Below are positions 3-2,996 of a stretch of 49,422 nt of DNA, one piece after another. Each line of letters starts with the position of its first letter. Within the stretch, counting starts at the first letter, position 1. The DNA is taken from assembly GCA_016649905.1 (NCBI GenBank), contig JAENWU010000003.1, forward strand, positions 1-49,422, written 5' to 3'. Position numbers and translations under genes: made by a program. The stretch is from Thermoleophilia bacterium (GTDB lineage: Bacteria; Actinomycetota; Thermoleophilia; Solirubrobacterales; 70-9). The notes below the pieces were generated by a model. That model was not told the DNA's origin. It made no database searches and was given only the letters and a program-made list of their open reading frames with translations.

Positions 3-191
3 CTCGACGTGCTGGTCGAAGGGACCAGCCGCACCGACGAGACGCGCCTGCGCGGACGCACCCGCCACAACAAGGCGGTCAACTTCGACGGGGTCGCGGA
101 ACCCGGTGAGTTCGTTGCCGTCGAGATCGACTCGGCTACGTCGCAGACGTTGAGCGGGGTGTCGGCACAACCCCTCTCGCGCCTCCTTTGA
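3..191 (+). CDS. miaB: MiaB C-terminal TRAM domain (5' partial)
   Basis: Last ~62 residues of a gene that begins before the window. The segment LVEGTSRTDETRLRGRTRHN followed by KAVNF is typical of the TRAM RNA-binding domain closing MiaB, the radical-SAM/Fe-S enzyme that methylthiolates i6A37 of tRNA. The rest of the protein (radical-SAM CxxxCxxC and N-terminal MTTase domain) is outside the window, so a related methylthiotransferase cannot be strictly excluded. The following miaA, which makes the i6A substrate, supports MiaB. The stop TGA overlaps the TTG start of miaA (TTGA), which implies translational coupling. Confidence 0.85.
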   Translation, partial: LDVLVEGTSRTDETRLRGRTRHNKAVNFDGVAEPGEFVAVEIDSATSQTLSGVSAQPLSRLL

Positions 192-958
192 CGGTCCTCG
201 CGATATTCGGGCCGACCGGGGTCGGGAAGACCGGGGTGGCGATTGCGCTCGCTGAGGAGCTGCGGGAGGCTGGCGAGGATCCGGTTGCGGTCAATTGCGA
301 CGCGCTGCAGGTGTACGAAGGGCTGGGGGTGCTCACGGGCAGCGCCACTGCCGAGGAGCAGGCGAGGCTGGAGCACAAGCTCTTGGGGTTTGTGCCGGTC
401 ACGGAGGGCTTTTCGGTGGGGGACTACATGCCGCTGGCTCACCGGGAGATCGATTTGGCGCTGGAGGCTGGGCGGACGCCGATCGTGGTGGGAGGGACGG
501 GGCTCTATCTGCGGGCGGCGCTCGCCGAGCTCTCGCTGCAGAAGGTGCCGGCGGAATCGGGGGATTCGGAGCTGTGGTCGCCGGAAACTCGCCATCCGAC
601 CACGATCTTCGGCCTCGACATGGACCGCGAACGGCTCTACGAGCGGATCGATGAGCGGGTCAAGGCGATCGTCGCCGGCGGTGGCGCCGAGGAGGCACGG
701 CGCGCCGATGCGCTCGGGCCCGGTCGCACCGCCCGCAAGGCACTCGGCTTCGACGAGCTGCTCGCCGGCGACCTCGAGACGATGAAAAAGCGCTCGCGTA
801 ACTACGCCCGCCGCCAGCTCACCTGGATGCGCAAGATCCCCAACCTCCACCACATCGACCGCACCGCCCTGAGCGACACCCAAACCGCTCGCCTGTTGAT
901 CGATGGGCCGATACCGGGAGATATAGGCACGAAATCGGCCCATCGGCGGAAGGCGTAG
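188..958 (+). CDS. miaA: tRNA dimethylallyltransferase MiaA, internally shortened
   Basis: Transfers the dimethylallyl group from DMAPP to N6 of A37 in tRNAs reading UNN codons; MiaB then methylthiolates it. Seen: P-loop GPTGVGKT (residues 8-15), the NCDALQVYEGL segment corresponding to DSxQVYxG of the family, GGTGLYLRAAL, and the C-terminal NYARRQLTWMRK. It is 256 aa against about 300-316 in the family. Between GTGLYLRA (about residue 105) and TTIFGLDMDRERLYERI only ~30 residues remain where E. coli MiaA has ~85, so the insertion ('swinging') domain with its DRQRxxRALEV segment is missing. The last ~18 residues (DGPIPGDIGTKSAHRR then KA) are encoded by a palindromic repeat at 901-947. Start is TTG at 188, overlapping the miaB stop. 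Activity is uncertain given the deletion. Confidence 0.88.
   Translation: MTVLAIFGPTGVGKTGVAIALAEELREAGEDPVAVNCDALQVYEGLGVLTGSATAEEQARLEHKLLGFVPVTEGFSVGDYMPLAHREIDLALEAGRTPIVVGGTGLYLRAALAELSLQKVPAESGDSELWSPETRHPTTIFGLDMDRERLYERIDERVKAIVAGGGAEEARRADALGPGRTARKALGFDELLAGDLETMKKRSRNYARRQLTWMRKIPNLHHIDRTALSDTQTARLLIDGPIPGDIGTKSAHRRKA
901..947 (+). repeat. Palindromic element A, copy 1 (in frame in miaA)
   Basis: Inverted repeat with arms CGATGGGCCGAT (901-912) and ATCGGCCCATCG (934-945) around a GGGAGATATAGG-like centre. The same element occurs at 25971-26023 and 49165-49217. Here it is read in frame and supplies the MiaA C-terminus (DGPIPGDIGTKSAHRR). Confidence 0.85.
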
Positions 959-959
959 G

Positions 960-1814
960 GTGCGGCGGGTGCGCTTCGAGAAGTGGCAGGCTCTTGGTAA
1001 CGACTACTTGATCCTCGAGGAGGAGAACCTGCCTTGGGAGCTCAACCCCAAACGGATCGAGTGGCTTTGCGATCCCCACTTCGGCGTCGGCTCCGACGGC
1101 ATTCTGCTGCTCTCGCGCAGCGAGGACCCGCAGTTCGTCGCCTCGCTGCGGATCTTCAACCCCGACGGCTCCGAGGCCGAGCTTTCCGGCAACGGTGCTC
1201 GGGAGGCAATTCTCTACCTGCGCCGGCACGGCTGGACCGACGCCGACGAGTTCGCGATCAGCACCGTCGCCGGGCCGATCGTGCCGACGATCACCGGCGA
1301 GCTGACCTGCGCAGTCGAGATGGGCAAGGCCTCGACCACCTCCAAGGACTTCCCGTCCGCAGGCGAGGACGGCAAGGGCAGCCTCAGTGCCGGCGGGCGC
1401 GAGTGGGAGTTCCAGCACGTCTCGATCGGCAACCCGCAGTGCGCGATCGTCGTCGGCGACGAGCTCGACGACCTCGACCTCGGCGCAATCGGGCCCGGGA
1501 TCGAAGGCAACGAGCTCTTCCCCAACCGCACCAACGTCTCCTTCCTCGAGATCGACGGCAGCACGGTGCGGGCGCGGATCTTCGAGCGCGGGGTGGGGGA
1601 GACGCTCTCCTCCGGCACCGGCGCCAGTGGCGCCGCCGTCACCGCCTACCTGCGCGGAGCCACCAGCCCGATCCTTGTCGAGCTCGAAGGCGGCGAGCTC
1701 GAGGTCGAGATCGGCGAGGACCTGGCGGTGCGTCTGACCGGCTGGGCCGAGCCCGTCTACGCCGGCGAGCTCTCGCCGGAGCTGCTCAGCGCACTGTCCG
1801 AGCTGTCCGACTAG
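960..1814 (+). CDS. dapF: Diaminopimelate epimerase DapF family, Ser for both catalytic Cys
   Basis: DapF interconverts LL- and meso-diaminopimelate for lysine and peptidoglycan synthesis. At 284 aa it has full family length. Fold signatures are present: ALGNDYLI (11-18), FNPDGSEAE (66-74), GNGAR and ETLSSGTGAS (214-223). Oddity: the two cysteines that act as acid and base in characterised DapF enzymes are both serine here (Ser76, codon 1185-1187, in LSGNGA; Ser218, codon 1611-1613, in SSGTGA). It follows miaA by one base (GTG at 960; an in-frame GTG at 969 is a plausible alternative start) and precedes dapL by 12 bp, so the pathway context is strong. Either this lineage uses a serine variant or the protein has another activity. 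Confidence 0.85.
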   Translation: MRRVRFEKWQALGNDYLILEEENLPWELNPKRIEWLCDPHFGVGSDGILLLSRSEDPQFVASLRIFNPDGSEAELSGNGAREAILYLRRHGWTDADEFAISTVAGPIVPTITGELTCAVEMGKASTTSKDFPSAGEDGKGSLSAGGREWEFQHVSIGNPQCAIVVGDELDDLDLGAIGPGIEGNELFPNRTNVSFLEIDGSTVRARIFERGVGETLSSGTGASGAAVTAYLRGATSPILVELEGGELEVEIGEDLAVRLTGWAEPVYAGELSPELLSALSELSD

Positions 1815-1826
1815 ATTTCCGCGCCC

Positions 1827-2996
1827 ATGGGGATCGCAGAACCGTCCAAGCGCCTGGAGGCGATGCCTCCCTACAAGTTCCAGGAACTGGAGCGCCAGAT
1901 TGCCGACCGGCGGGCCGCCGGCATCGACGTGATCAACCTCGGCATCGGCGACCCCGACGAGCCGACCTATCCCCACATCGTCAAGGCGATGCAGGCGGCG
2001 GTCGCCGACCCGACCAACCACCAGTACCCCTCCAACCGCGGCCGCGAGGAGTTCCGCCAGGCCTTCGCCGACTTCTACGACCGTCGCTTCGGGGTCGAGA
2101 TCGACCCGGCGACCGAGGTGATCCCGGCGATTGGCGCCAAGGAGTGCATCTACAACCTCTGCTTCGCATTCCTCGACCCGGGCGGCGTCGCCCTCGCCTC
2201 CGACCCCGGCTACCCGGTCTACACCGGCGGCCCGATCCTCGCCAACGCGACGCCGGAGCTGCTGCCGCTGGTCCCCGAGCTCGGCTTCGCTCCCGACCTC
2301 ACCGCGATCGCGCCGGACGTCGCCGAGAAGGCGCGCCTGATGTTCATCAACTACCCGAACAACCCGACCGGCGCCGTCGTCCCCGAGGGGTTCTTCGAGC
2401 GGGTCGTCTCCTTCGCCAGGGAGTACGAGATCCTCGTCGTCCACGACGACGCCTACTCGGAGACCACCTACGACGGCTACGTCGCGCCCAGCTTCCTCGC
2501 CACGCCCGGCGCCAAGGAGGTCGGCGTCGAGGTCTTCTCGCTCTCCAAGGGCTTCAACATGACCGGCTGGCGCTGCGCCGCGATCCTCGGCAACGCCGAG
2601 GCGATCCAGACCTACTGGCGGCTGAAGACCAACGTCGACTCCGGCCTCTTCGAGGCGGTGCAGATGGCGGGCGTCGCCGCTCTGGAGGGCCCGACCGGCC
2701 CGTTGGAGCGGATGAATCAGACCTACAGCCGCCGCCGCGACCTCGTCGTCTCCGCCCTGCGTGAGATCGGCGTCGAGGTCAACGCTCCGAAGGGAACGAT
2801 CTACGTCTGGGCGCCGGTCCCGAGCGGCCACACCTCGACCTCCTTCTGCGAGACGGTGCTCGAGGAGGCCGCAGTGGTGATCTCACCGGGCTCGATGTAC
2901 GGGCCCAGCGGCGAGGGCTTCTTCCGGATCTCGCTGACCACGCCCGACGAGCGCATCGAAGAGGCCGTCGAGCGCATGCGCGAGCACCTCGCCTAG
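1827..2996 (+). CDS. dapL: LL-diaminopimelate aminotransferase-type PLP enzyme (DapL)
   Basis: Class I/II fold-type I aminotransferase of 389 aa. Motifs: NLGIGDPDEPT near residue 35, FINYPNNPTGA, HDDAYSE and SLSKGFNMTGWR with the PLP-binding Lys. DapL converts tetrahydrodipicolinate directly to LL-DAP, bypassing the succinylase branch. The assignment to DapL rather than a general aspartate/alanine aminotransferase rests on the GIGDPDxPT opening, the SKxxNMTGWR segment and its position directly after dapF. ATG start at 1827. Its stop (2994-2996) abuts the stop of the convergent MBL gene with no spacer, so transcripts must overlap or terminate inside coding sequence. Confidence 0.82.
   Translation: MGIAEPSKRLEAMPPYKFQELERQIADRRAAGIDVINLGIGDPDEPTYPHIVKAMQAAVADPTNHQYPSNRGREEFRQAFADFYDRRFGVEIDPATEVIPAIGAKECIYNLCFAFLDPGGVALASDPGYPVYTGGPILANATPELLPLVPELGFAPDLTAIAPDVAEKARLMFINYPNNPTGAVVPEGFFERVVSFAREYEILVVHDDAYSETTYDGYVAPSFLATPGAKEVGVEVFSLSKGFNMTGWRCAAILGNAEAIQTYWRLKTNVDSGLFEAVQMAGVAALEGPTGPLERMNQTYSRRRDLVVSALREIGVEVNAPKGTIYVWAPVPSGHTSTSFCETVLEEAAVVISPGSMYGPSGEGFFRISLTTPDERIEEAVERMREHLA

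Follow-up and report, generated by a model that had tools for sequence, protein, structure and literature searches.

Results and discussion

Diaminopimelate (DAP) epimerase (DapF) is an essential enzyme of cell-wall and lysine synthesis, and homologues with serine at both catalytic cysteine positions are real and widespread. They seem likely to form a natural class of DAP epimerases in which a hydroxyl/alkoxide pair of serines (Ser/Ser) inverts the alpha-carbon, this being the only DapF of a whole actinobacterial order, where a histidine has also become glutamine, and occurring in other phyla as well. The example described here lies in the window, i.e., the whole 49,422-nucleotide stretch of DNA that was analysed, which its named neighbours put in the Solirubrobacterales and whose draft assembly has 212 contigs. 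A plasmid search gave distant, partial matches only. The relevant features are as follows.

188..958, + strand: miaA-like gene directly upstream of dapF (open reading frame and synteny; name from sequence alone)
960..1814, + strand: dapF, Ser/Ser diaminopimelate epimerase homologue, 284 aa, GTG start (open reading frame, profile models, AlphaFold model)
1185..1187, + strand: TCC codon of Ser76, aligned with catalytic Cys73 of E. coli / H. influenzae DapF
1437..1439, + strand: CAG codon of Gln160, aligned with His159; Gln only in the Solirubrobacterales form
1611..1613, + strand: TCC codon of Ser218, aligned with catalytic Cys217
1827..2996, + strand: dapL, LL-diaminopimelate aminotransferase, which makes the LL-DAP substrate (PRK09276, 539.9 bits, cut-off 507)

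An intact DapF without catalytic cysteines

The translation of positions 960-1811 contains NPDGSEAELS(76)GNGAR and ERGVGETLSS(218)GTGAS, and in the alignment with E. coli DapF, Cys73 falls on Ser76 and Cys217 on Ser218. The original prediction, that these two serines replace both catalytic cysteines, is therefore exact down to the codon coordinates. It had also described the gene as otherwise intact and full length, which agrees with a score of 186.7 bits on the DapF equivalog model TIGR00652 (cut-off 114.65), two PF01678 (DAP_epimerase) domains over the curated cut-off and a confident AlphaFold model (pLDDT 94.8, pTM 0.90). Compared with many solved DapFs, to which the protein is homologous over its full length at about 30-34% identity, the model has the two-domain DapF fold, with TM scores mostly of 0.8-0.88. 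In this model Ser76 and Ser218 come just ahead of the N-termini of the central helices, residues 77-89 and 219-231, which is the place of the catalytic cysteines.

Set against the DapF signature N-x-[DN]-[GS]-[SENGFT]-x(4)-C-[GI]-N-[GA]-x-R, quoted with its catalytic Cys73 in PMC8225329, the window segment NPDGSEAELSGNGAR has a sole mismatch, Cys to Ser76. Ser218 likewise stands where DapFs have their second catalytic cysteine, Cys217, and Gln160 where they have His159 near the catalytic pair. The DAP-binding residues N11, N64, N75, N157, N190, E208, R209 and T219 (E. coli numbering) are all present. On the bifunctional DapF/glutamate racemase model NF038284 the protein reaches 46.7 bits, below the cut-off of 350. 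It is thus a DapF by sequence and fold; by the mechanism that defines the two-thiol class we file it outside that class, because both catalytic cysteines, including that of the signature, are absent.

dapL follows dapF directly, as had been proposed; on TIGR03540 it scores 515.9 bits, below the cut-off of 593. The gene order miaA-dapF-dapL is conserved. Adjacency of dapF and dapL is equally common in relatives with both cysteines (Cys/Cys), which leaves the serine change with no particular link to the DapL pathway. We accordingly rejected the idea that the Ser/Ser state is specific to DapL-pathway operons, the same dapF-dapL order being found in Cys/Cys relatives and in those with Ser at the first site only (Ser/Cys).

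Fixation of both serines within the Solirubrobacterales

Aligning DapF across the Solirubrobacterales, a check named by the original prediction, gave Ser at both sites in 89 of 89 distinct sequences fetched, with Gln at the His159 position in all of them. Asn11, Asn64, Gly74, Asn75, Asn157, Asn190, Glu208, Arg209, Gly218 and Thr219 (E. coli numbering) are invariant in the same set. Because both serines are fixed in every distinct order-level sequence, the Ser/Ser DapF is far beyond chance, and is neither a decayed nor a one-off gene. Serine codons of the TCN and AGY families occur in ratios of 86/3 and 76/13 at the two sites (distinct order-level sequences); since these families are not joined by one synonymous change, their joint occurrence suggests that serine itself is maintained at both positions. 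The dN/dS of dapF against close relatives was 0.16-0.30; the value of 0.61 against L091 was left out, being unreliable through codon saturation. One dapF homologue match (G065:C13:26180-27019) contains an in-frame TAG, reflecting either a sequencing error or decay.

The need for meso-DAP and the search for another source

The MurE of the window's own genome carries DNPR, which we take to be the meso-DAP-type motif. LysA, which acts on meso-DAP, was present in 60 of 61 order genomes. Every member of the order is described as having meso-DAP for its diamino acid (PMC3035278), and meso-DAP has been found in Solirubrobacter (PMC10722151).

A profile search found no second PF01678 protein in the window's own genome, and in the class survey the two PF01678 domain matches of order members represent one protein, with rare exceptions. 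In eight single-contig genomes (G017, G081, G093, G103, G139, G160, G198 and G226) the sole PF01678 protein is Ser/Ser. Ddh (meso-DAP dehydrogenase, PF16654) was not found in 80 of 81 order genomes, and six closed ones (G017, G081, G093, G103, G139 and G160) gave no match. A second canonical dapF and a Ddh gene were what the original prediction had proposed to look for, the former as grounds for abandoning it; with no second dapF in its own genome or the eight closed ones, and no Ddh in all but one genome, we rejected rescue by either on these own-genome and order-wide searches. Given meso-DAP in the order, the presence of LysA, the lack of a second DapF and the near absence of Ddh, we infer that LL-DAP is epimerised in these cells, with the Ser/Ser DapF as the only known candidate.

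Some individual genomes deserve mention. The sole Ddh match among the 81 is L183 (G254:C1:346057-346512). In G307, an 8.2 kb contig (C165) holds a divergent Cys-type DapF-like open reading frame (L182) beside the Ser/Ser DapF of the same genome, which may be a paralogue or contamination. The window's own genome has the glutamate racemase MurI. Of the 41 order genomes searched for MurI (TIGR00067), 11 gave no match (G081 and G103, both closed, G053, G098, G118, G280 and five of genus g27); D-glutamate might be supplied there by a D-amino-acid transaminase, or else by DapF if it is promiscuous.

Ser/Ser and Ser/Cys forms beyond the order

Among the loci read from other Thermoleophilia families, those of f5, f6, f8, f10 and f12 are Cys/Cys, those of f7 and f11 are Ser/Ser with His kept, and f9 is a mix of Cys/Cys and Ser/Cys. 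The Ser/Cys loci of f9 (L007, L009, L021, L023 and L030) are nested among Cys/Cys relatives, and as placed on the tree their clade is a separate Cys73-to-Ser change; these proteins represent a naturally occurring intermediate that could serve studies of the mechanism. Outside the class, 13 of the 30 Aquificota loci read are Ser/Ser with His kept and the remaining 17 are Cys/Cys. The Ser/Ser members (Hydrogenothermaceae) are on the side with the named Persephonella and Sulfurihydrogenibium records. Being thermophiles, the Aquificota on the two sides of this split (noted for L186-L198, L134 and L139) would offer stable proteins for side-by-side comparison. In Methylomirabilota, 29 loci read Ser/Ser with His kept and one further locus is truncated; all loci read from the class and the phylum surrounding the ANGP1 genome show the same state. 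In the first eight non-Thermoleophilia genomes found with it, the Ser/Ser protein is the only DapF.

On a tree computed without the catalytic columns, the catalytic states need at least five changes and the Ser/Ser rows fall in four groups. The AU test does not reject a single Ser/Ser clade (p-AU 0.31), and the Ser/Ser state may have had one origin or several.

Candidate helper residues

Within the order, Cys37 (95/95) and Cys161 (91/95) are conserved, but both also occur in Cys/Cys enzymes. Cys161 varies in the Ser/Ser and Cys/Cys groups alike, and the Ser/Ser proteins of f7 have Ala there; Cys117 is missing from some order members. A nearby cysteine taking over, the other finding that the original prediction had said would undo it, is therefore not what the alignment shows, and alignment column counts led us to reject a shifted cysteine at either catalytic position. 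Glu82 is nearly fixed in the order. It is unlikely to be a helper base, as Ile takes its place in the other Ser/Ser groups and the helix geometry would point it away from Ser76.

Catalysis by DapF is described as requiring His159 (PMC5885031). The replacement of this histidine by Gln is confined to the Solirubrobacterales among the groups examined, the other Ser/Ser groups keeping His, and suggests a retuning of the active site.

A proposed serine-pair mechanism

Judged from the genomic evidence, the Ser/Ser protein is almost certainly a working LL-DAP epimerase, and a serine-based version of DapF very probably exists. It is quite likely that this DapF makes meso-DAP with Ser76 and Ser218 as acid and base. 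The original prediction had left a choice between a Ser/Ser epimerase and supply of the function by another residue or protein; meso-DAP in the order, the presence of LysA and the failure of both proposed refutations support the former best. The simplest reading is a two-base inversion by the serine pair. Ser76 and Ser218, each placed where a central helix begins, would lie on either side of the substrate in the manner of the cysteine pair. The helix dipole, together with the desolvation that comes with domain closure, would deprotonate or polarise one serine so that it takes the alpha-proton, and the second would give a proton to the opposite face.

We count in favour of this reading the invariant DAP-binding residues, the single DapF, the near lack of Ddh (1/81), the presence of LysA (60/61), the meso-DAP reported for the order, the DNPR of MurE, the serine codon mix, the dN/dS, the fold, the recurrence in other phyla and the catalytic Ser of an epimerase in the related proline racemase superfamily. 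In the C. glutamicum DapF complex, the substrate is held by residues matching those invariant in the order, and alanine at eight tested substrate-binding residues almost abolished activity (PMC5296763). Against it we count the poor activity of Cys-to-Ser mutants described next, that His159, called essential in canonical enzymes, is also lost in the Solirubrobacterales form, and that the model yields no pKa or geometry accounting for hydroxyl activation.

That Cys-to-Ser mutants lose epimerisation, as the original prediction stated, is upheld for characterised enzymes. A single Cys-to-Ser change leaves PddB with <0.1% activity, as is also reported for M. tuberculosis DapF (PMC8225329); HisR C67S and C209S are greatly impaired (PMC11602996). 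An Asp/Glu racemase with Thr for one Cys works in one direction, according to a review (PMC8142540). Because Cys-to-Ser mutants keep <0.1% activity, the natural Ser/Ser enzymes must differ from them in some way. In the open-access literature we found neither an assayed Ser/Ser enzyme of the DapF fold nor a description of a natural Ser/Ser DapF.

The canonical two-cysteine DapFs of H. influenzae, E. coli, C. glutamicum and P. aeruginosa share with the window protein the fold, the substrate-binding residues, the single copy and the pathway position; they differ in having both catalytic cysteines, including that of the PROSITE signature, and the His159 that is Gln in the order. The H. influenzae C73S and C217S mutants (PDB 2q9h and 2q9j), which have solved structures and were made because the change hinders catalysis (PMC12039745), have Ser at one of the two catalytic positions. 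They are single mutants of a thiol enzyme, whereas the natural form combines both changes with lineage-specific changes around the site. Among the PDB entries matched, not all of which were checked residue by residue, these engineered proteins were the only ones with such serines, and no natural Ser/Ser DapF was seen. In the proline racemase superfamily, of the same fold class, a Ser/Cys 4-hydroxyproline 2-epimerase has a natural catalytic Ser for one cysteine, but only at one position and with another substrate, and the double replacement Ser/Thr is a trans-3-hydroxyproline dehydratase, not an epimerase (PMC4113996). Chlamydia has DapL, and its bifunctional DAP epimerase/glutamate racemase DapF resembles the window protein in acting after it. 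The Chlamydia protein, however, retains both cysteines, C72 and C207 (PMC5885031), and the window DapF is far under the cut-off of the bifunctional model.

Alternative explanations

The protein could be a DAP epimerase in which at least one of the serines has no acid/base role, with Glu209, Gln160, a bound water or Cys161/Cys37 moving the protons. Gln160 in every order-level sequence implies that changes in the active-site chemistry go further than the serine pair, and the order does conserve Cys37 and Cys161, as given above. We nevertheless regard this as unlikely: the distribution of both cysteines across Cys/Cys enzymes and family f7 speaks against them, Glu209 is also present in Cys enzymes and binds the substrate amino group in a published structure (PMC5296763), and idle serines would hardly explain strict fixation at both sites. 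Loss of the epimerase activity altogether, with meso-DAP made by an unrecognised enzyme such as a broad-specificity PLP racemase, is less probable still, and we would be surprised by it. Characterised enzymes are nearly dead as Cys-to-Ser mutants (PMC8225329, PMC11602996), and a meso-DAP-making enzyme of another kind could escape searches for known families; yet the invariant DAP-binding residues, the presence of the gene in nearly every genome, its synteny with dapL and purifying selection all argue otherwise, and the same loss and replacement would have to have happened in several separate lineages.

A changed reaction, i.e., another substrate, a lyase comparable to the Ser/Thr dehydratases of the proline racemase superfamily (PMC4113996) or a glutamate racemase like Chlamydia DapF (PMC5885031), appears very improbable. 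Residue changes in the DapF/proline racemase fold have gone with new functions, and some order genomes (11 of 41) gave no MurI match, but the protein is the only DapF, it adjoins dapL and meso-DAP is still required; moreover the window's own genome has MurI and the NF038284 score is low. As for a sequencing or assembly artefact or a pseudogene, which the draft state of the assembly might bring to mind, we give it next to no chance, this being refuted by the recurrence of the same residues across numerous independent assemblies, among them closed genomes and those of two named strains, Conexibacter arvalis (L091) and Solirubrobacter taibaiensis (L125).

Implications

Annotation pipelines pass Ser/Ser proteins as ordinary DapF, so that the variant is easily missed. 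C. glutamicum DapF is switched off via an active-site disulfide (PMC5296763), and the serine form points to a DapF that neither oxidation nor inhibitors of the thiol-directed or aziridine kind would affect. Serine (pKa ~16) in the role of cysteine would challenge the accepted explanation for the deprotonation of a carbon acid of pKa ~29.
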